Source: Bordetella sp. 02P26C-1 (GTDB taxonomy: Bacteria > Pseudomonadota > Gammaproteobacteria > Burkholderiales > Burkholderiaceae_B). Taken from it: a DNA stretch of 64,000 nucleotides. The position numbers and the translations under genes were made by a program. The stretch spans positions 62,001 to 126,000 of the forward strand of contig NZ_WSJB01000032.1 of NCBI RefSeq assembly GCF_009763255.1, read 5' to 3'. Each line of letters begins with the position of its first letter. The stretch's first letter is position 1. Positions 1,829 to 11,469 of the stretch are shown piece after piece. The notes beneath the pieces are model-generated. The model ran no database searches, had not been told where the DNA came from, and saw only the letters and a program-made list of their open reading frames with translations.

Positions 1829-2140
1829 ATGCACGACCTAACTAAGTACCAAATTGGCCATATTGCTGGCGGCATTCCGGTCATGGCGACGATGGCGACC
1901 ACGGATTTGGATACGGACGCACAACCGCCATTGGTTGGCAGCGTGAGCCGGCAAACAGGCATTACTGGCAATTTTGTGACTCGCGCGCTCGGTGCGCTGT
2001 CAGAGGGTATCCATCTAGCGCAACACCCTATGCTGGGAGCGGGTTTCGCTGCGCTCATATGCGCGGTGGAGTTCCTTTCCCACGAAGGGATGCCCAGCCT
2101 GCACCACCGACCACAACGGACCGTCGAAGAGGCACAGTAA
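1829..2140 (+). CDS. Small double-glycine-leader peptide 1
   Basis: 103-residue peptide with an N-terminus resembling the leaders cut by C39 peptidases: MHDLTKYQIGHIAGG, with hydrophobic residues spaced as in class II bacteriocin/microcin leaders and Gly-Gly at 14-15. The predicted mature part of 88 residues has a Gly/Ala/Leu-rich stretch near the C-terminus (MLGAGFAALICAVEFL), which could be a membrane helix, and one Cys. A good ribosome site (GGGGATAAGG) sits just before the ATG. It lacks the Trp...Arg core shared by the four other peptides here, so it is a diverged member or a separate peptide. No cognate exporter or immunity gene is recognisable nearby. Function unknown; bacteriocin-like is an inference from the leader only. 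Confidence 0.6.
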   Translation: MHDLTKYQIGHIAGGIPVMATMATTDLDTDAQPPLVGSVSRQTGITGNFVTRALGALSEGIHLAQHPMLGAGFAALICAVEFLSHEGMPSLHHRPQRTVEEAQ

Positions 2141-2344
2141 GCTCGGGCGGGACCATTCAACAATCGGTGTCTACCGTTTGTCTGATTCTAAGGCGAAAAC
2201 GCACCCCGCCTTTCGTCCGATTTTCCTCTTCGGCTACCCTCGTCGCCAGCCGTTCGAGCCCCGCGCAGATGGCGCAACTCGAGAAGACAACACCGTCTTC
2301 GGCTACGACATCCTGGCTTGTCGACTTAGATAAATGGAGCAATG

Positions 2345-2689
2345 ATGCGCGAACTTTCTTTATATGGTTTGGACTCCGTTGGCGGTGGTCGAGACGACGC
2401 CCTTGCCGTGCAGGTGCTGGCCACCGCCGCGACGGTAGGTGTATGGTCCTCCTGGACCGACCGAACAAACACCGAGGCGCTTTTCACGGCGATCAAACGA
2501 TCCTGGATCCCGACGGCCATCGTCGATGTTGTCTGCGCCAAGGCATTCCCTGACCCAGCGATAGACGGCCCGCTAGGCCCGATCAACTCCAACTACAACC
2601 GGTGGGCTTGCGCCATACTCAGCGGCACCGTTCAAAGCTTCTTTCATTTCGGTGTGAACCCGTTGGCCGAGCTGGGCACTGCCAACTAA
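2345..2689 (+). CDS. Small double-glycine-leader peptide 2 (two-cysteine type)
   Basis: 114-residue peptide with leader MRELSLYGLDSVGG followed by a third Gly, which fits the proteobacterial class II bacteriocin-type leader (M-R-E-L-x4-L-x2-V-G-G). Two ATGs are adjacent; the second (2345) is chosen because it lies 5 nt after the GGAG ribosome site and gives the same M-R-E start as its relatives. The mature part has a hydrophobic Ala/Val segment, then the core WIPTAIVDVVCAKAF and, further on, RWACAILSGTVQSF. Both Cys align with those of peptide 4. No homologue is recognised outside the leader. Peptide 3 begins 22 nt after its stop, so the two are probably co-transcribed. Confidence 0.72.
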   Translation: MRELSLYGLDSVGGGRDDALAVQVLATAATVGVWSSWTDRTNTEALFTAIKRSWIPTAIVDVVCAKAFPDPAIDGPLGPINSNYNRWACAILSGTVQSFFHFGVNPLAELGTAN

Positions 2690-2711
2690 CGTTTTGCATA
2701 AGGAGACACAA

Positions 2712-3035
2712 ATGCGCGAACTCGCTCTGTCAACCATGCCAGCTGTTTCCGGCGGCCTGGATTCCACCACCGGCGCCGCCATGATTGCTGGCACCTTATC
2801 CCGAGCGCTTGCCTATACAGTAACTTCCAGTGTGACTGGCGGCTCCTGCACGCTCGAAGGGCTCAAGCCATCATGGACCAAAGGCTGGATTGTCCCAGGC
2901 ATCGCCGACGTATTCTTCGATAGCGACACCTATGAATCACGGCTCCCCGTAGCGTTCTTGTACGGCACACTGGCGGGATTCACCGACGCGCTGGAGCAGC
3001 GGGAGCAGGCGGCAACAATCGCCAAGCGCGATTGA
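2712..3035 (+). CDS. Small double-glycine-leader peptide 3 (cysteine-free core)
   Basis: 107-residue peptide with leader MRELALSTMPAVSGG and a strong ribosome site (AAGGAG) 7 nt before the ATG. The predicted mature chain of 92 residues starts LDSTTGAAMIAGTLSRALAY and contains the family core WIVPGIADVFF and RLPVAFLYGTLAGF. Where peptides 2 and 4 have Cys it has Phe and Val; its single Cys (GGSCTLEG) lies outside the core. It ends in a charged tail (EQREQAATIAKRD). It lies 22 nt behind peptide 2 and faces the autotransporter gene, with a hairpin between them. The product is probably secreted after leader cleavage; activity unknown. Confidence 0.72.
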   Translation: MRELALSTMPAVSGGLDSTTGAAMIAGTLSRALAYTVTSSVTGGSCTLEGLKPSWTKGWIVPGIADVFFDSDTYESRLPVAFLYGTLAGFTDALEQREQAATIAKRD

Positions 3036-3133
3036 TTCAGGGACGCAGCGCAATTGCAGCAGGCTTCAGAAAACCGTAGTAGCTACAAGAAGTGAAGCAC
3101 CGCTGCCGTTAAAAGACGGTGTATCGCGTATAT

Positions 3134-3169
3134 GTCGAGTGCGGCTACAGGCGCCCTGCCGCACTCGAC
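3134..3169. terminator. Hairpin between convergent peptide 3 and autotransporter genes
   Basis: Perfect 11-bp arms (GTCGAGTGCGG / CCGCACTCGAC) around a 14-nt loop, in the 142-nt gap between two convergent genes. There is no T-run on either side. It may act as a bidirectional terminator or a 3'-end stabilising stem. Confidence 0.5.
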
Positions 3170-3177
3170 ACGCCACC

Positions 3178-5280
3178 TTAATAACGGAACGTCGCGGTCA
3201 GGTTACCCCCGTTCTCCTTATATCCCGCCCGGCCCTGATTGTGAAACAGTGCCAGGTTCAGCAAAAGATTTTTGTCGATTTCGCCCTCGACACCCAGCTT
3301 GACTTGCGCCACATCGCGCGCGTGCGAGAGTGTCGTGGTGACACCATCATCGTGAGCCTTGTAGGCCTTGTTGGTGTGCAACCAGTTGAGTTCAACATGA
3401 GGCGTGAAGGTCGAGTTTGATGTGCCTGCAAAGTTGGCCGCGGCCCGGACTCCAAGCACTGTTTGCAATCTCGGGCTATTGCTTACAGACACGCGTCTTG
3501 CGTCCCCGCTGTCAAAGCCCCGTGCGCGAACATTCTGATAGATCAGTTGTGCGTGTGGCTGCAACTTGTACTTAACATTGCCGCGCTCCGCGAGCATCGC
3601 GTCATAGCCGACTTCCAGCCCAGCGGTCAGCCCTTTGGCTTTGTACTTGTCGGCCGCGAGTTGATCTGTCTTGATCCGGTTGTCGAAAACGTTCCAGAGT
3701 AACCAGCTATCGATGTAGGCGCCGCGATCTTGACGACGGCCGTTTTCATAGTAGGTCCCATAAGCACCGAAGCTATAGCCGTTCACCGTGCCTGAACTAG
3801 AAGGCTTGTTCCGGTTAGAAGTGGTTTTGCCGTGATAGTGACCATACCCGCCCATAATGCCCAAGACGATTTGATCGCCACGCCGACCCGCTTCGTTGAA
3901 AAGATCGACGCCAAGCATGACGGCATTTTTGTCGCCTTTGTGGTGCAGTTGACCGGAAGCGTCGTTAAAGCGACTGTGGGAACCGCTATAGCGGATCCAT
4001 GCATTGCCATGCGTGTTCCCAGCGCTCATATCGCCAGGTTGATAGTTGGCCAGTCGCTCTTGCAGCGACAACTGGAACATGGTGTTGGCCGCCAACAGAT
4101 TGCTCGCAAATGCGCCGGCCCTGGGCGAATGTATCGGCATGGTGGCGATTGACGGCGGAGCATGGACCGGCGTGGTCTCCGTCTCCGGCATCACGGCGGA
4201 CGGGGATTCGGCAGCGGATTCAGGATTTGATTCTTGAGATGCTTCTTCGGGGTTATCCGGCGGAGTTTCTTCGACCGGCGGTTCCTGCGTTAACGGGTGG
4301 GTTTCCTTATTTGGGGCAGCCTTGGCATTGGGATTCATTTCTTTCTGAGACGATTGCTCCGCATCCTCCGCCCCCTCTTCTGGCTCGCCTTGACCATTTG
4401 ACTGCTTGGCGGACACTGCCGGCGACGCGTTTGAATCTTGATGCTGCCCAGGCGCGCTGGCTGTTTGCTTCTCAGTGCTTGCCTCTACCGTAGCCCGAGC
4501 GGCAGATTCGGCGTAATCGGTTAAATGAACAATCTCTTGTCCAGTTGTCTTCAACGTCGTTAGGGCATCCTTGATCTCGTCCCCAAGCGACGTTTCGCTA
4601 ATCACGGCTACGACATATGATGCTTCGCTGGCAGCGAGTGGCTTGGCGGCGTCTTCGAGTGCGACTGACGTACGGTCTATAAGCTTGGCGGCTTCTCCTG
4701 CCACGCGTGCGGCGTCTGCCAACTCTGGCCCTACCGGGGCTATGACCTTTAAAAGGTCTTCACTCTCTCGTCCCGCAAAGGCCTTCACTTCCTCCTCGGA
4801 TTGATCTGCCAGAGCAGTCAAGGCGACCCCGGTTTTCAGGGCGTCGGCCAACTCGGACACCAGACTGGTCGCAAGGAGCACCTCCGCAATATCTGATGTT
4901 TGTTGTTGCGCGAAGGCCTTCGCTGCGGTTTCCATCTCATCTGTTTGCCGCACGAGCCATCGCACCGTTCCATCACATACGCCCACTGCGTCTTGGAGCT
5001 CGGGCATGAGGGGTTTCAAGATAGTTTTGACAGCGGTCGGCAATTCCTCAACCGTTGACCAAGGAACGGGCGGTGAGCTGGATCGCTCCGACTTGGGAGA
5101 CATCGCATTCAACCCTGGTTTTTGTGGCTGCCGCTGCGATTCGCCCAACGCATGCGATACGCTAGGAACGGCCAGGGACGCCAGTAATACGCATGAAACC
5201 CACGACGGATTCCTACGGTGCCGCATGTGCTCGGTAGCCGTCTGGTCACCCTGCGCACACCCAATAAACTTGGTCATCAT
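3178..5280 (-). CDS. Autotransporter with helical-repeat passenger and pertactin-type beta-barrel
   Basis: 700-residue type Va secretion protein. The start at 5280 follows AGTGAGGATAGG; a Sec signal peptide lies at about residues 19-44 (MRHRRNPSWVSCVLLASLAV, cleavage near SHA), giving a long N-terminal extension before the hydrophobic core. Residues about 77-265 are Ala/Glu-rich and contain four degenerate repeats of 43-49 residues starting PELQDA (93), SELADA (142), PELADA (185) and DEIKDA (234). Residues about 270-375 are a Pro/Glu/Ser/Asn-rich linker. The rest (about 395-700) is an autotransporter beta-domain (FQLSLQERL, GNAWIRYSGSHSRF, terminal ATFRY ending in an aromatic residue). Typical relatives carry beta-helix passengers, so the helical passenger is unusual. 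It is transcribed against the flanking small-peptide genes. Whether the passenger is cleaved, and what it binds, cannot be told. Confidence 0.85.
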   Translation of the reverse strand: MMTKFIGCAQGDQTATEHMRHRRNPSWVSCVLLASLAVPSVSHALGESQRQPQKPGLNAMSPKSERSSSPPVPWSTVEELPTAVKTILKPLMPELQDAVGVCDGTVRWLVRQTDEMETAAKAFAQQQTSDIAEVLLATSLVSELADALKTGVALTALADQSEEEVKAFAGRESEDLLKVIAPVGPELADAARVAGEAAKLIDRTSVALEDAAKPLAASEASYVVAVISETSLGDEIKDALTTLKTTGQEIVHLTDYAESAARATVEASTEKQTASAPGQHQDSNASPAVSAKQSNGQGEPEEGAEDAEQSSQKEMNPNAKAAPNKETHPLTQEPPVEETPPDNPEEASQESNPESAAESPSAVMPETETTPVHAPPSIATMPIHSPRAGAFASNLLAANTMFQLSLQERLANYQPGDMSAGNTHGNAWIRYSGSHSRFNDASGQLHHKGDKNAVMLGVDLFNEAGRRGDQIVLGIMGGYGHYHGKTTSNRNKPSSSGTVNGYSFGAYGTYYENGRRQDRGAYIDSWLLWNVFDNRIKTDQLAADKYKAKGLTAGLEVGYDAMLAERGNVKYKLQPHAQLIYQNVRARGFDSGDARRVSVSNSPRLQTVLGVRAAANFAGTSNSTFTPHVELNWLHTNKAYKAHDDGVTTTLSHARDVAQVKLGVEGEIDKNLLLNLALFHNQGRAGYKENGGNLTATFRY

Positions 5281-5611
5281 CCTATCCTCACTTGGTACAA
5301 CGGTGTAGATCAGTCATCGAGCGAAGTATTGGGCCACAGTCCGCAAACCCGCCGCGGAAGATTCCATGTCCTCGCGGAAAACAGGACCCATGCACATGTG
5401 AGGACGCTCGACGTCGCAGCCTCCGACAACACGCGATCTGCGTATCGGTGCCTGACTGAAGTCTTATTTTTGGGGAGAAGACTAACTTTTATCCGTGCTG
5501 TTCACGACGGAGATTAGGCTTGGATCCGCTCGCCATCGTGTCTGGTGATGGCGGCGTTTCCGCATCCTTGGATGCATTCAATCGATAAATGCTTTAAAGC
5601 ACGGAGATATG
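5281..5611. other. Divergent regulatory gap between autotransporter and peptide 4
   Basis: 331 nt without a convincing gene, between the divergent starts of the autotransporter and peptide 4. It must hold both promoters. A weak inverted repeat (GTCTT ... AAGAC, about 5461-5482) is the only visible structure. No recognised operator. Confidence 0.5.
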
Positions 5612-5926
5612 ATGCGTGAACTGACTTTGCACGATCTGACCGACATTGGCGGTGGGAACGTGGTGAATGGTGCGTTTGTAAATTCGGTGGCCGCTGTGAT
5701 TCGAGGAGTTTTGGGAAGCGCGAGCACCGATCTGAGTTTAGGTAGCGCCATTGATTCCGCCCAGAGAGGGTGGGTCCTGACGACGGCGATCGATTATGGC
5801 TGCATGAATTTGGCTCAGGCGGGTGGAGGGGGAAATGAGCACTACATCCGCTTGACATGTGGCACTTTGTCCGCCCTATTACAGAGCTACGCCCGCTGGC
5901 CCATCACAAATAGCGATCAAGCGTAG
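5612..5926 (+). CDS. Small double-glycine-leader peptide 4 (two-cysteine type)
   Basis: 104-residue peptide with leader MRELTLHDLTDIGG and a third Gly. As in peptide 2, two ATGs are adjacent; the second is used because GGAG lies 5 nt before it and only 2 nt before the first. The mature region has a hydrophobic Val/Ala segment (FVNSVAAVIRGVL), then WVLTTAIDYGCMNLA and RLTCGTLSALLQSY. From the Trp, Asp is at +7 and Cys at +10, exactly as in peptide 2; from the Arg, Cys is at +3, Leu at +6 and Q-S-aromatic follows, again as in peptide 2. These are clear paralogues. A run of four Gly (AGGGGNEH) lies between the halves. Confidence 0.74.
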   Translation: MRELTLHDLTDIGGGNVVNGAFVNSVAAVIRGVLGSASTDLSLGSAIDSAQRGWVLTTAIDYGCMNLAQAGGGGNEHYIRLTCGTLSALLQSYARWPITNSDQA

Positions 5927-5974
5927 ACAAGCGCGCTGGTTGCCGAATTAATCGTAATAAAGCTGGAGAACTAA

Positions 5975-6307
5975 ATGCGTGAAGTTTCAACAAATGAATT
6001 GTCGATGGTAGGCGGCGCGGTCACCGCTACGGAAGTGGGCTGCACACTAGCGGCGGGCATCGTGGGTCAAGGGGCAGGCTACCTCGTCGCTGAATTATGG
6101 GATAGCGGCTTCAAGAAGCTTCCCTCCAGCGAATCATTGCACTCCGCCCTGACAGGCTGGGTTGCCCCGCTGGCAGTAAGCCTTGCTTACCACACAGAAG
6201 ATGTTTACCAATCTCGCGGCCCATTGAGTGTAGGCATCGGCTTCCTGGCTGGCATCGCACACCATCGGGCGAAGCAAAAGGCTGTCGAGCCTCAGGCGAC
6301 TGCATAA
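5975..6307 (+). CDS. Small double-glycine-leader peptide 5 (cysteine-free core)
   Basis: 110-residue peptide with leader MREVSTNELSMVGG, preceded by GGAG 7 nt from the ATG. The mature part opens with a Gly/Ala-rich helix (TLAAGIVGQGAGYLVAELW), then the family core WVAPLAVSLAY and RGPLSVGIGFLAGIAHH, and a basic tail (RAKQKAVEPQATA). The core has no Cys at the two positions used in peptides 2 and 4; its one Cys (VGCTLAA) lies near the mature N-terminus. It starts 48 nt after peptide 4 and is probably in the same transcript. Its stop lies 5 nt from the convergent stop of the next gene. Secreted peptide of unknown activity. Confidence 0.72.
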   Translation: MREVSTNELSMVGGAVTATEVGCTLAAGIVGQGAGYLVAELWDSGFKKLPSSESLHSALTGWVAPLAVSLAYHTEDVYQSRGPLSVGIGFLAGIAHHRAKQKAVEPQATA

Positions 6308-6312
6308 CGCTA

Positions 6313-7755
6313 CTAACTAGTGCCTTGCACCCGCGCGTCCCCCCACCGGCGCGCGGCCGCCAGCAGGTCATCAACATGCACCATCATCTCCCGCGCTCTG
6401 TACATAGATTGATATTGCTGCATGACCGGCTGCCAACGAGGCGCATACAATACCTGCTGCCAGACTGGCTGCAAGGCGTCGGCACATGGCTTCTCTCCAT
6501 CTTGCAAGCGGGCCGCAAAGGTAAGGCTGTCCTCACACGAAAGAAGCTGCATACGGCTACCAGGGCTTAACAATCCAACAAGGGGCTCGATCTGGGAATC
6601 AGAGCAATAAAGCACGCCGCACGACGCCTCGGCCTGACACGTAGGCCATCCGGCGAGCGATGCACCATGGATACTGACTTCGCCTTCGTTTGTCATGCAC
6701 GCATAGTGGACGTCCCGGCCCGCACTAGCCAAAGCCTGTAACCCACGTATCAAACGCGGCAAGTCCCCCGTGGCTGCGTCCGCCGAGGCTTTCGCTTCGA
6801 TCAACAGGCAAAGGTCATAAGGCGAAGCCTCACTCGCGGACGCCGAACGCCTAAGTAGCACGACGTCCCACTCGCCCTTGGCATGATCTGTCGCCATCGG
6901 CAATATCGCAGGGGAACGTAGCGAGGTGACAACGCGATAGACGTTATGGTGATCGCACAATGCTTCGAGACGCGCCGCCAGATACTTCAGAGCATGTGCA
7001 GCGCGCAGCTCTACGGCATCGCCTCGTTGACGCGCTTGAGCCCCTTGCTCTCGCGCGTACGCACTGCCCGCAAGCGGACCCTGACGCGCTCGCAATGCCC
7101 GATACTTCATTACGTCGGTATGATTTTGGAGGACCGACAGACGCTGCAACCGTGAAAGTGCGCCTGTACTCAGCAGCCGTTTCAAGGACGCCGTAAAAAC
7201 AAGATCACCGCGGATCGGTTCCGGTTGCACTATCGCCTGCGCTTCGTCAGCGAGCTTGTCCCAAGCTTCTGCGGCATACTGCTGATACATCCGCTCGGCG
7301 ACTTCACGGACCGGCCCAACGGGCATCCGTAGCACCTTCTGCGGATGCGCGATGGCGTTGATGTTCGCGGTAACCGCGCGCCGGTCGTCGTTCTGCCCAG
7401 CTGAAAGCAAGACATACTCATTTACCGCCGCGGATTGCCGTTGCAAGAGCAACGCTTGAAAGGCCGGATCACCATGAACAGGGTGCGCCGCCCTTTCGAT
7501 GAGAAGCGCTAATGCCCCGCAGAATTCGACGCTTAAGTCTTCGGACGGGCTCGCCTGGGCTTCGATGGCTGCGCGCGCGTGCTCGATTGCAATAGCGATT
7601 CGATTGGCCGGCGTCGCGGGGACCGCGCCATTAGCTGAAACCTGCTCCTGTATGGCCGGGTGCGCCGCTGCAATTAAAGAGGGGCGCGCCGGTATGCGAT
7701 AGCGCCGTTCCACGGTTCGCAGCACCTGCTCGAGAATCGGGCACTGTCCTGACAT
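6313..7755 (-). CDS. Uncharacterised protein with a PD-(D/E)XK-like C-terminal half
   Basis: 480-residue protein. The N-terminal half (from ILEQVLRTVERRYRIPARP) looks helical and is not recognised. In the C-terminal half, RGDAVELRAAHALKYLA is followed by GEWDVVLLRR and then LCLLIEAKAS. This Glu helix, Asp on a strand and Glu-x-Lys on the next strand match the spacing of the PD-(D/E)XK nuclease fold, so an endonuclease-like role is possible but unproven. The rest (ACMTNEGEVSIHGASLAG, VLYCSDSQIEPLVGLL) could be the remainder of that core. It is convergent with peptide 5 with a 5-nt gap and seems to be transcribed alone. It may be an ordinary chromosomal gene bordering the peptide island and not part of it. 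Confidence 0.6.
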   Translation of the reverse strand: MSGQCPILEQVLRTVERRYRIPARPSLIAAAHPAIQEQVSANGAVPATPANRIAIAIEHARAAIEAQASPSEDLSVEFCGALALLIERAAHPVHGDPAFQALLLQRQSAAVNEYVLLSAGQNDDRRAVTANINAIAHPQKVLRMPVGPVREVAERMYQQYAAEAWDKLADEAQAIVQPEPIRGDLVFTASLKRLLSTGALSRLQRLSVLQNHTDVMKYRALRARQGPLAGSAYAREQGAQARQRGDAVELRAAHALKYLAARLEALCDHHNVYRVVTSLRSPAILPMATDHAKGEWDVVLLRRSASASEASPYDLCLLIEAKASADAATGDLPRLIRGLQALASAGRDVHYACMTNEGEVSIHGASLAGWPTCQAEASCGVLYCSDSQIEPLVGLLSPGSRMQLLSCEDSLTFAARLQDGEKPCADALQPVWQQVLYAPRWQPVMQQYQSMYRAREMMVHVDDLLAAARRWGDARVQGTS

Positions 7756-7865
7756 ACCGAGTAACCCCTCACAACGCGCCCAAACATCTTGCGCACAAAC
7801 GATTATTCAAACCTAAATGATCGTGCCCGCCTGAGATTGAGCCGATCAACTCAACGCAAAACGCA

Positions 7866-8417
7866 TCATCCGTCCAGCGCCACCCCGAGATCCAAGCTCA
7901 TCAATTTCTCGGCATACAAAGTGCCGTCAATCAGCAACGCATCCGGTTCCTCACCATACACCTGAAAGCCCAGCCGCTCATATAAGCGCAATGCGCGAGT
8001 ATTCGAACCCGTCAATGTCAGCGTAATGCGCTGGATGCCATCAAGCTTGCGCGTCTGCTCGATCGCCATGGTCAGCATAGTTTCGGCCGCGCCGCTGCCG
8101 CGCAAGTCCGGATCCATGTAGACGCCCCAGAACGTCACCTTATGCGCGGTTTTACGCGCGTGGTTGCGGAATGCGCCGACGGTTCCCTTGAGCTCGCTAT
8201 CGAGAAACGCGCCCACAATGAACGCGTCCTCGTCCGGCCCGATACGAGATGCCCATTGAGCATCCGACAGCGCCGCCTCATCTGCCACGCTGGCATGGAA
8301 GCACTCGGGTGAGTTGGTCAGCATGACCTCGCGCAACCGGCGCATAGGGGTTATGTCCTCGCGGGTCAAAAGACGGAATTGAGGCTGGCGCTTAGTGATT
8401 TGGGGACCTGACGTCAT
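7866..8417 (-). CDS. GNAT-family N-acetyltransferase
   Basis: 183-residue cytosolic acetyltransferase. The fold is visible from FRLLTREDITPMRRLREVML at the N-terminus through AFLDSELKGTVGAFRNH to the acetyl-CoA-binding segment GVYMDPDLRGSGAAETML (R/Q-x2-G-x-G/A type) and the C-terminal TGSNTRALRLYERLGFQVYGEEP, which is characteristic of the superfamily. The substrate cannot be predicted. ATG at 8417 is chosen; a TTG at 8438 would add seven residues, and neither has a strong ribosome site. A 110-nt gap separates it from the previous gene. Confidence 0.85.
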   Translation of the reverse strand: MTSGPQITKRQPQFRLLTREDITPMRRLREVMLTNSPECFHASVADEAALSDAQWASRIGPDEDAFIVGAFLDSELKGTVGAFRNHARKTAHKVTFWGVYMDPDLRGSGAAETMLTMAIEQTRKLDGIQRITLTLTGSNTRALRLYERLGFQVYGEEPDALLIDGTLYAEKLMSLDLGVALDG

Positions 8418-8532
8418 GACAATAAAGTTTAGAAACAAGAAGGTCCAGCCAACATACCAGATCTCGCAGCTCGCGGGCGCTCAGGGACGCAGATGTCAGC
8501 ATCAGGAGCGTCTGAATTCGCACACTCTCGCT

Positions 8533-8554
8533 ACTTAGGAATTACCCCTATGTG
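8533..8554. promoter_or_regulatory. TAGG...CCTA inverted repeat upstream of first TRAP operon
   Basis: TAGGAATTACCCCTA in the 271-nt gap before the TRAP solute-binding gene, about 140 nt upstream of its start. Near-identical motifs occur at 23086 and 35489. A possible -10 box (TAGAAT) lies about 40 nt further downstream. Looks like an operator; the regulator is unknown. Confidence 0.4.
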
Positions 8555-8688
8555 GCGCATTCCAGGGACTTGTAGGCGGTCCAGACCCGTAGAATTGCAT
8601 CGCACAAGGCAAAAGCCTCGAATTTTCATGATGTTTCCGTGTTTCGTACCGGCCGCATCGCTACTCTAAGCCAAGAAGGATCGTTCTC

Positions 8689-9663
8689 ATGAAAAAGACC
8701 CTCTCCCTGCTGGCCGCCAGCTTCGCGCTGGCCTTTAGCGCCAGCGCTACGGCACAGACCAAATGGGATCTGCCCACGGCATACCCCTCCAGCAATTTCC
8801 ACGTGGAAAACCTGAACCAGTTTGCCAAGGACGTCGATACGCTGTCCAACGGCAAGCTCAAGATCGTCGTCCACAACAATGCCTCGCTCTACAAGGCCCC
8901 GGAAATCAAGCGTGCCGTGCAGGGCAACCAAGCCCAGATCGGCGAGATCCTGCTGACCAACTTCGCCAATGAAGACCCGATCTACGCTTTGGACGGCCTG
9001 CCCTTCCTGGCTACGGGTTACGACGCTTCTTTCAAGCTCTACCAAGCGCAAAAAGCGTATCTGGAAAAGAAACTCGCCTCGCAAGGCATGACGCTGCTGT
9101 ACTCCGTGGCATGGCCCGCCCAAGGCATTTTTGCCAACCGCGACCTCAAGACCGTGGATGATCTGAAAGGCCTGAAGTGGCGCGCTTACAGCCCGGTGAC
9201 GGCGAAGATCGCCGAACTGGTGGGCGCGCAACCGGTCACGGTGCAAGCGGCCGAATTGTCGCAGGCGATGGCTACTGGCGTGATCGATTCGTATATGTCT
9301 TCGGCCTCCACCGGCTACGACACCAAGACGTACGAGTACATCAAGAAGTGGTATGACAATCAAGCATGGCTGCCCAAGAACGCCGTGATTGTGAACAAGC
9401 GCGCCTTTGACGCCTTGGATCCGGCCACGCAGGAAGCCCTGAAAAAGGCGGGCGCTCAGGCCGAGGAACGCGGCTGGAAGCTGTCCCAGGAAAAAGGCGA
9501 GTGGTACAAGCAGGAGCTCACGAAGAACGGAATGGCCATCGTCAAGCCGACTGCTGAACTTCAAGAAGGCCTGAGCAAGGTTGGTCAGGTCATGATCGAC
9601 GAATGGGTCAAGCGTGCCGGAGACGATGGCAAAGCCATCATCGATTCCTATCGCAAGATGTAA
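8689..9663 (+). CDS. dctP: TRAP transporter solute-binding protein (DctP family)
   Basis: 324-residue periplasmic receptor that captures a small carboxylate and delivers it to the TRAP permease. It has a clean signal peptide (MKKTLSLLAASFALAFSASATAQ), and the DctP fold is visible in SSNFHVENLNQFAKDV, LYKAPEIKRAVQGNQAQIGEI, DDLKGLKWRAYSPVTAKIAELVGAQPV and the C-terminal PATQEALKKAGAQAEERGW. The Arg in WRAYSP is at the place that usually contacts the ligand carboxylate. An AAGGA ribosome site precedes the ATG. The two membrane subunits follow at once, so the operon is dctPQM. The ligand is not predictable. Confidence 0.93.
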   Translation: MKKTLSLLAASFALAFSASATAQTKWDLPTAYPSSNFHVENLNQFAKDVDTLSNGKLKIVVHNNASLYKAPEIKRAVQGNQAQIGEILLTNFANEDPIYALDGLPFLATGYDASFKLYQAQKAYLEKKLASQGMTLLYSVAWPAQGIFANRDLKTVDDLKGLKWRAYSPVTAKIAELVGAQPVTVQAAELSQAMATGVIDSYMSSASTGYDTKTYEYIKKWYDNQAWLPKNAVIVNKRAFDALDPATQEALKKAGAQAEERGWKLSQEKGEWYKQELTKNGMAIVKPTAELQEGLSKVGQVMIDEWVKRAGDDGKAIIDSYRKM

Positions 9664-9668
9664 TCCCA

Positions 9669-10169
9669 ATGCGCCGTTTTCTTGATTCTTTGTACGGCGC
9701 AGCCGGCCTTCTGGCCGGCTTGTGCATGATAGGGGTACTGGCTTCAGTACTTATTTCCATTATTGGCCGTCAGATCGATTGGCACGTGGCGGGCGTCGAT
9801 GCCTACGCGGGTTATTTCATGGCGGCTGCGGGCTTTTTGGCGCTGGCCAGCACGTTCAAGCACGGCGAACATATCCGGGTGACCCTGTTGTTGAATTCCC
9901 TCGCGGAACGCAGCAGCCGCCGTCTTGATATTTTCGCGCTGTGCATGGGCACGCTGTTGGCCGCGGCTTTTGCGTTTTTCAGCATCAAATTGACGCTGGA
10001 TTCGCATATGTACAACGACGTTTCGACGTCCAACGATGCCACGCCACTGTGGATTCCACAGCTCAGCATGGCCATCGGTACCGTGTTGTTCCTGGTTTCG
10101 CTGGTCGATGAACTGTTCCGCCGCCTGCGCGGCCTGCCTGCTCCTACGTCTCAGCAAACCCATGAATGA
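9669..10169 (+). CDS. dctQ: TRAP transporter small permease (DctQ family)
   Basis: 166-residue inner-membrane protein with four predicted helices (FLDSLYGAAGLLAGLCMIGV; YAGYFMAAAGFLALAST; FALCMGTLLAAAFAFFSI; LSMAIGTVLFLVSLVDELFRRL). The segment between the second and third helices, FKHGEHIRVTLLLNSL, is typical of DctQ. The ATG at 9669 is chosen because it lies 5 nt after the dctP stop and gives a normal N-terminus. Its 3' end overlaps the start of the large permease by 8 nt, suggesting translational coupling. Confidence 0.92.
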   Translation: MRRFLDSLYGAAGLLAGLCMIGVLASVLISIIGRQIDWHVAGVDAYAGYFMAAAGFLALASTFKHGEHIRVTLLLNSLAERSSRRLDIFALCMGTLLAAAFAFFSIKLTLDSHMYNDVSTSNDATPLWIPQLSMAIGTVLFLVSLVDELFRRLRGLPAPTSQQTHE

Positions 10170-11469
10170 AGTCCTCGTCATCACACTATTGGTCGTCTCG
10201 ATTTTTGCGCTGCTGGGTTGCGGGGTCTGGGTTGGTTTGACCCTCGCCGGCACGGCGTGGATCGGGATGGAAATTTTCTCCAGTCGCCCCGCTGGCGATG
10301 CCATGGCGGTCACCATCTGGGGTGCGGCGTCGAGCTGGACGCTGACGGCGTTGCCGCTGTTTCTGTGGATGGGAGAGATCCTTTTCCGCACGCGGCTGTC
10401 GGAGGATCTGTTCAAGGGCTTGGCCCCTTGGCTAAACCGTTTGCCCGGACGCCTCCTGCACACCAACGTCATTGGCTGCGCGATCTTCGCCGCAGTGTCT
10501 GGCTCGTCGGCCGCTACCTGCGCGACGGTGGGCAAGATGACCATCCCGGAACTGAAAAAACGCGGCTACCCGGAAAGCAAGGTACTCGGCACGTTGTCGG
10601 GCGCGGGCACACTTGGTCTCTTGATTCCACCCTCGATCATCATGATCGTCTACGGTGTCGCGGCCGACGTGTCGATTGCACGCCTGTTTATTGCCGGAAT
10701 CTTGCCCGGCATCTTGCTGGCCGTGCTATTCATGGGCTATATCGCGTGTTGGGCGATCCGACATCCGGACGAAGTCCCCTCCTCCGACGAGAAAATGTCG
10801 TTGCGTGAGAAGCTCTATCACTCGCGTCATTTGATACCTGTGTTGATCCTTATCGCCGCCGTGTTGGGATCGATCTATACGGGTATCGCTACCGCGACGG
10901 AAGCTGCCGCTATTGGCGTGGTTGGGGCACTGATCCTGTCGGCCTCGCAAGGGTCGCTGAACCGAAAAAGCTTCATGCAGGCGCTCCTGGGCGCCACAAG
11001 GCTGTACTGCATGATTGCCTTGATCCTGGCCGGCGCGCAGTTCCTGACGCTGTCCATGGGATACATCGGCCTGCCGCGCGCATTGGCCGAGTGGATCGGT
11101 GGGCTTGGGCTGTCGCAGTTTGGGCTGATCATCGCGCTGATGGTGTTCTTTGTTGTGCTGGGATGCTTCTTGGACGGTATCTCGATCGTGGTACTGACGA
11201 TGGGCGTGCTGCTGCCCACCGTGCAAGCCGCGGGCATCGATCTGATCTGGTTCGGGATCTTCGTCGTGTTCGTCGTGGAGATGGCGCAAATCACCCCGCC
11301 CGTGGGATTCAACCTGTTCGTGCTGTCGGGCATGACGGGCCGCGAATTACCCTATGTAGCGCGCGCGTCCATGCCCATGTTCATCCTCATGATCCTAGCG
11401 GTACTCTTGTTGTATGTCGTGCCTGGCATCGCGACTTGGCTGCCTCAGCACATGATGAGCCTGCAGTGA
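10162..11469 (+). CDS. dctM: TRAP transporter large permease (DctM family)
   Basis: 435-residue inner-membrane protein with about a dozen hydrophobic helices. It is the Na+- or H+-coupled translocation subunit of the TRAP system. Family signatures are visible: PLFLWMGEILFRT, AAVSGSSAATCATVGKMTIPELKKRGYP, GAGTLGLLIPPSIIMIVYGVAADVSIARLFIAGILPG and MAQITPPVGFNLFVL. The length matches the family. The ATG at 10162 overlaps the dctQ 3' end. No further gene follows on this strand, so the operon ends here. Confidence 0.94.
   Translation: MNEVLVITLLVVSIFALLGCGVWVGLTLAGTAWIGMEIFSSRPAGDAMAVTIWGAASSWTLTALPLFLWMGEILFRTRLSEDLFKGLAPWLNRLPGRLLHTNVIGCAIFAAVSGSSAATCATVGKMTIPELKKRGYPESKVLGTLSGAGTLGLLIPPSIIMIVYGVAADVSIARLFIAGILPGILLAVLFMGYIACWAIRHPDEVPSSDEKMSLREKLYHSRHLIPVLILIAAVLGSIYTGIATATEAAAIGVVGALILSASQGSLNRKSFMQALLGATRLYCMIALILAGAQFLTLSMGYIGLPRALAEWIGGLGLSQFGLIIALMVFFVVLGCFLDGISIVVLTMGVLLPTVQAAGIDLIWFGIFVVFVVEMAQITPPVGFNLFVLSGMTGRELPYVARASMPMFILMILAVLLLYVVPGIATWLPQHMMSLQ

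Follow-up and report, generated by a model that had tools for sequence, protein, structure and literature searches.

Small proteins with a double-glycine (GG) leader are normally reported from Gram-negative bacteria as the products of one to a few genes adjoining their exporter. Known class II microcins and the Caulobacter proteins CdzC/D have an immunity gene, and among the GG peptides of other bacteria there are also signals. For microcins, recognition and cleavage of the GG leader by a C39 ABC transporter, followed by one-step export via HlyD and TolC, is established (PMC9746304, PMC10233263). In Cdz-like systems, the exporter is conserved and the cargo varies (PMC5380434). A further arrangement is represented by EbfG1-4/PteB of Synechococcus elongatus, where four genes in one operon encode GG-leader proteins of 9-10 kDa that share one C39 transporter, have partly redundant roles in biofilm formation and need no immunity genes (PMC4997328). 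Our literature search turned up no prior account of GG proteins in Bordetella that resemble bacteriocins or microcins.

The window, i.e. the whole stretch of 64,000 nucleotides that was analysed, corresponds to C24:62001-126000 of a Bordetella genome of 4.10 Mb in 41 contigs. An earlier note on this DNA described five genes of 103-114 codons with GG leaders and ribosome sites, arranged 3+2 around an opposite-strand autotransporter gene, and all of these features were found as quoted. On the plus strand, w1 (1829-2140, 103 aa, leader MHDLTKYQIGHIAGG, mature part of 88 aa) precedes a tandem pair composed of w2 (2342-2689, 114 aa from ATG 2345 or 115 aa from ATG 2342, leader MRELSLYGLDSVGG(G)) and w3 (2712-3035, 107 aa, leader MRELALSTMPAVSGG, GTLAGF motif at the C-terminal end). 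Beyond the autotransporter gene on the minus strand (3178-5280) follows a second plus-strand tandem pair, w4 (5609-5926, 104 aa from ATG 5612 or 105 aa from ATG 5609, leader MRELTLHDLTDIGG(G)) and w5 (5975-6307, 110 aa, leader MREVSTNELSMVGG(A), GFLAGI motif at the C-terminal end). The choice between the two in-frame ATGs of w2 and w4, which are one codon apart, does not affect the leader. A purine-rich ribosome site of the GGAG/AAGG type is located near the ATG of all five genes, and a combined score for leader and ribosome site is at least 9.7 in each case. Only three ORFs in 0.89 Mb of other DNA reached this score, and all three encode GG peptides adjoining C39 exporters. Thus, the five ORFs are not chance matches. 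At the DNA level, a leader pattern run across the genome returned chance matches only and was inferior to protein profiles.

The genome contains exactly one Peptidase_C39 domain (E=5e-35), located on contig C1 and not on that of the window. It belongs to an ABC transporter (L004:12213-14396, minus strand) whose gene forms one cluster with the overlapping genes for an HlyD adaptor (L004:14348-15616; TIGR01843 HlyD, E=1.8e-36) and a TolC-like channel (L004:10772-12292; TIGR01844 TolC, E=1.4e-37), both on the same strand and both scoring below the curated subfamily cut-off. The peptidase residues Q24, C30, H103 and D119 have the spacing of Cys32/His105/Asp121 in CvaB (PMC9746304), and among the solved relatives over the full length are ABC-type bacteriocin transporters and ComA. 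The C39 transporter that the earlier note suggested looking for elsewhere in the genome exists and carries the catalytic residues of CvaB, and the double-glycine leaders are genuine. Directly downstream of the TolC-like gene, six further GG-leader genes follow (L004:10355-10732, 9958-10287, 9660-9902, 9286-9606, 8922-9239 and 8467-8793), two of which encode proteins with weaker leader ends, GC and HGA.

Rather than a set of five, as originally proposed, the window genes are part of a family of at least 15 GG genes at four places in the genome, a lower bound that rests on the stretches fetched and on searches by profile. When only w2-w5, four genes that by this criterion form a single family, were used for a profile, it retrieved independent copies in the same genome on two further contigs (8.6e-8 and 3.1e-5) and also matched contigs of a second species. 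Apart from the exporter locus, the additional places are the C12 site (L020:6825-7136 and 7277-7639) and the C8 site (L021:7128-7487 and 7549-7884), each with one tandem pair; together with the two pairs of the window, tandem pairs are frequent. The weakest member is w1, which lacks the C-terminal GxxxG and matched the wider family profile only piecewise (6e-5 and 0.008) even though it was included in that profile. No branch of the family tree is strongly supported. No common promoter or regulatory motif was found 5′ of the family genes apart from the ribosome sites, and a plasmid search with w4 gave no match. The second protein of the C12 pair (L020:7277-7639, plus strand) terminates in a tail of Cys-Pro repeats (APCPPCPPCPFGNFTLT) that sets it apart from its relatives.

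Conservation of exporter and family in relatives, which the earlier note had left to be checked, was observed in a second species. In Bordetella genomosp. 4 AU9919, the exporter (85% identical) and the HlyD adaptor (79% identical) are found at the equivalent place in the chromosome, with the same genes on either side, and four GG genes then follow; three single ones on other contigs bring the number to seven. Neither outcome that the earlier note had named as contrary to its reading, a genome devoid of a C39 exporter or leaders not conserved in relatives, was encountered. Exporter and family co-occur in two of nine Bordetella genomes, one genome per species, and these two may be sisters; the other seven have neither a C39 domain nor a family member. 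Searches that covered 268 genomes of the taxonomic family and 369 genomes of the class yielded no further convincing member. Weak matches in other genera above E=0.005 were rejected as chance or leader-only. While the exporter is 85% identical across the two species, the cargo reaches about 40% at most (23-40% in the best pairs), a pattern as in Cdz-like systems (PMC5380434).

The precursors comprise 80-125 residues and the mature parts 65-110 (typically about 90); most mature parts contain hydrophobic stretches, two or three in number. That the mature parts match no known bacteriocin holds true, as Pfam, NCBIfam and PDB sequence searches with the five window proteins returned no named family. 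The Pfam model nearest to any member is Microcin V, which matched the first 58 residues with E=0.0013 and thus below the gathering cut-off. In AlphaFold models of modest confidence, w5 (pLDDT 64) and one family protein from B. genomosp. 4 (pLDDT 73) have a short helix in the leader, followed by three to four others, and Foldseek detected no structural relative of either model (all E>1); the mature parts are predicted to form three helices. The most distinctive feature of the family is a GxxxG followed by a hydrophobic residue within the C-terminal 50 residues. It occurs in 13 of 20 proteins, compared with a mean of 2.5 and a maximum of 8 in 2000 shuffling runs. Enrichment was restricted to this motif; small-xxx-small motifs in general are not enriched in the whole mature part.

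In several respects, the system resembles the class II microcin system of MccV/CvaC with CvaA, CvaB and TolC. Shared features are an MREL/MRTL-type leader ending in GG or GA, an ending found in each of the five window proteins and in most of the remaining ones, an HlyD adaptor, a TolC-like protein, a C39 ABC transporter with identical catalytic residues and spacing, a precursor size close to the 75-120 aa of the microcins, and, for one member, MccV as the closest Pfam match, below threshold. In contrast to class II microcins, at least 15 cargo genes at four places replace one to a few, the mature sequences are unrelated above threshold, and, unlike in class II microcins and CdzC/D, an immunity gene was not found beside the GG loci of the two genomes. 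Export would proceed as in a class II microcin system, yet we do not file the family as one because an immunity gene was not found and the homology of the cargo is sub-threshold. The most fitting description is that of a new family of C39-exported proteins, unusual in copy number and dispersal.

We propose that the HlyD-C39 ABC-TolC-like type I system serves the dispersed GG repertoire in trans from its separate contig. Precursors would be recognised via their MREL..L..VxGG-type leader, cut by the C39 domain after Gly-Gly or Gly-Ala and released from the cell in a single step. Cleavage and secretion by this route are very probable, since leader, peptidase and genomic co-occurrence match. The mature proteins of about 90 residues, with their two or three hydrophobic helices and the C-terminal GxxxG, might then insert into the membranes of competitors, probably of related bacteria, so that the family would represent a fast-changing bacteriocin- or microcin-like arsenal. 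Membrane insertion is presumed, and an antibacterial effect seems somewhat probable. Taken as a whole, the description of the 15 small proteins as a new family that is C39-exported, membrane-active and bacteriocin/microcin-like has a narrow balance of probability on its side. This reading is favoured by the divergence of the cargo, the species-specific gene sets and the recurrent GxxxG helix.

The main evidence against an antibacterial role is that no immunity gene is recognisable. Beside the GG loci of the two genomes, we found no convincing non-family candidate for an immunity-like small membrane ORF, an absence that is no proof given that immunity proteins are hard to spot by sequence. For the same reason, proteins like EbfG1-4 are the strongest rival. 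According to this explanation, which we consider possible but unlikely, the Bordetella proteins are cut by the C39 peptidase and secreted in order to build or modify the surface or a biofilm rather than to kill. In gene arrangement, a large, hydrophobic set devoid of immunity genes fits the several GG proteins and single C39 exporter of S. elongatus (PMC4997328); the EbfG genes are confined to one operon. However, antagonism would more typically produce the strong divergence and the differing gene sets of the two closely related species, and a GxxxG helix suits membrane insertion no less than aggregation.

It is doubtful whether the proteins are glycine-zipper bacteriocins like those of the Cdz system, which aggregate on the producer surface and kill by contact. 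Part of the published criteria for the CdzABCDI system of Caulobacter agrees with the Bordetella proteins: a length within 60-151 residues, a leader ending in G[G/A/S] (GC in one member), a type I exporter, genes in tandem pairs and a GxxxG motif (PMC5380434). On the other hand, most members have a single GxxxG and lack the extended zipper, as GxxxGxxxG occurs in only 5 of 22 proteins, and Gly, Ala, Val and Ile together account for 26-45% of residues versus 75% in CdzC/D. Moreover, a CdzI-like gene for a three-helix immunity protein was not found beside the GG loci, and Cdz-like systems are reported with 1-3 toxins, far fewer than the 15 found here.

The earlier note offered a multi-component secreted toxin, adhesin or signalling system as alternatives. 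A toxin-like function is favoured and signalling disfavoured; the data do not decide between toxin and adhesin. Quorum-sensing-like signals exported by the C39 transporter would have precedents among the GG peptides of other bacteria. Mature proteins of about 90 aa with several hydrophobic helices and 15 different sequences make this very improbable, and neither a histidine kinase nor a gene for a receptor was seen beside the GG genes.

If the membrane-active, bacteriocin-like reading is correct, the question is how a producer of many such proteins protects itself without recognisable immunity genes. One rather improbable scenario is that toxin genes are acquired one at a time or in tandem pairs at scattered sites, that one conserved exporter serves them in trans and that self-protection comes from the family itself instead of separate immunity genes, either from the paired GG protein or from a conserved acidic GG protein of the exporter locus. 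The latter type is represented by L004:9660-9902 and L024:9252-9551 (both minus strand), short, strongly acidic GG-leader proteins with one C-terminal hydrophobic helix each, which are the clearest one-to-one relatives between the two exporter loci (40% identity over 42 residues). An accessory or self-protection function of these proteins is possible.

The places of the GG genes differ between species. The distance between the two genes that flank the C12 site is about 1.07 kb in the source genome compared to only 41-391 bp in the other eight genomes, and the corresponding site of B. genomosp. 4, when read, contained no GG genes. Similarly, the genes flanking the C8 site are separated by about 0.95 kb versus 78-170 bp in four others; in B. 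genomosp. 4, where this site was read, it measures 537 bp without GG genes, and three genomes have larger inserts. At the window locus, neither B. genomosp. 4 nor any of the five other relatives that were read has GG genes. The gene pairs were gained in a lineage-specific manner at species-specific insertion sites, and the exporter locus may also have undergone a tandem expansion specific to each lineage.

The same comparison bears on the autotransporter. Its gene encodes 700 aa with a C-terminal barrel (Pfam Autotransporter, E=2.4e-36) and had been placed at the centre of the GG set. This view is not supported, since the equivalent locus of B. genomosp. 4 carries an autotransporter and a relative of the adjoining 480-aa protein and no GG genes. 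For the same reason, the window autotransporter is probably a bystander outside the export system. A single functional unit, for instance with the autotransporter as an adhesin that captures or displays the small proteins, is highly unlikely: only physical position speaks for it, whereas 10 of the 15 family genes are located elsewhere with no autotransporter among the neighbours read, and barrel paralogues occur at other places. In both Bordetella species these autotransporters form a group (3178-5280, minus strand; L148:4217-7930; L140:5224-7080; L147:4609-6354) with a conserved barrel and differing passengers.

A single exporter thus appears to serve about 15 divergent and scattered genes, a cargo that searches limited to the neighbourhood of the exporter would overlook. 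The arrangement predicts that loss of this one exporter abolishes the whole secretome. Other Alcaligenaceae-type genomes contain exporter homologues of about 47-53% identity. They belong to the same exporter lineage and several have GG peptides beside them. As a rule this is a single short peptide of unrelated sequence, and no member of the Bordetella cargo family was found in these genomes. Such single GG peptides in the same taxonomic family are L073:12379-12726, L074:7245-7439, L075:12476-12634, L076:12465-12626, L083:12420-12563, L088:6322-6603 and L089:4651-5028. Their mature parts are unrelated to the Bordetella family and mostly also to one another, and L089 contains a second, apparently frame-broken copy. 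More distant exporter homologues (Woeseiaceae, Solimonas and others) were rejected as carriers of the family as no such cargo adjoins them. Two distant genomes of the class encode glycine-rich hydrophobic GG-leader peptides of 84 and 85 aa (L152:1396-1650, minus strand, and L153:1501-1758, plus strand), which were rejected as members since the match is limited to the leader and the first helix. Finally, the 480-aa protein adjoining w5 (6313-7755, minus strand) has no significant Pfam or NCBIfam match and contains a D...EAK stretch (GEWDVVLLRR...DLCLLIEAKAS) reminiscent of PD-(D/E)xK nucleases. In B. genomosp. 4, the corresponding locus encodes a relative with 44% identity (L140:10149-11642).
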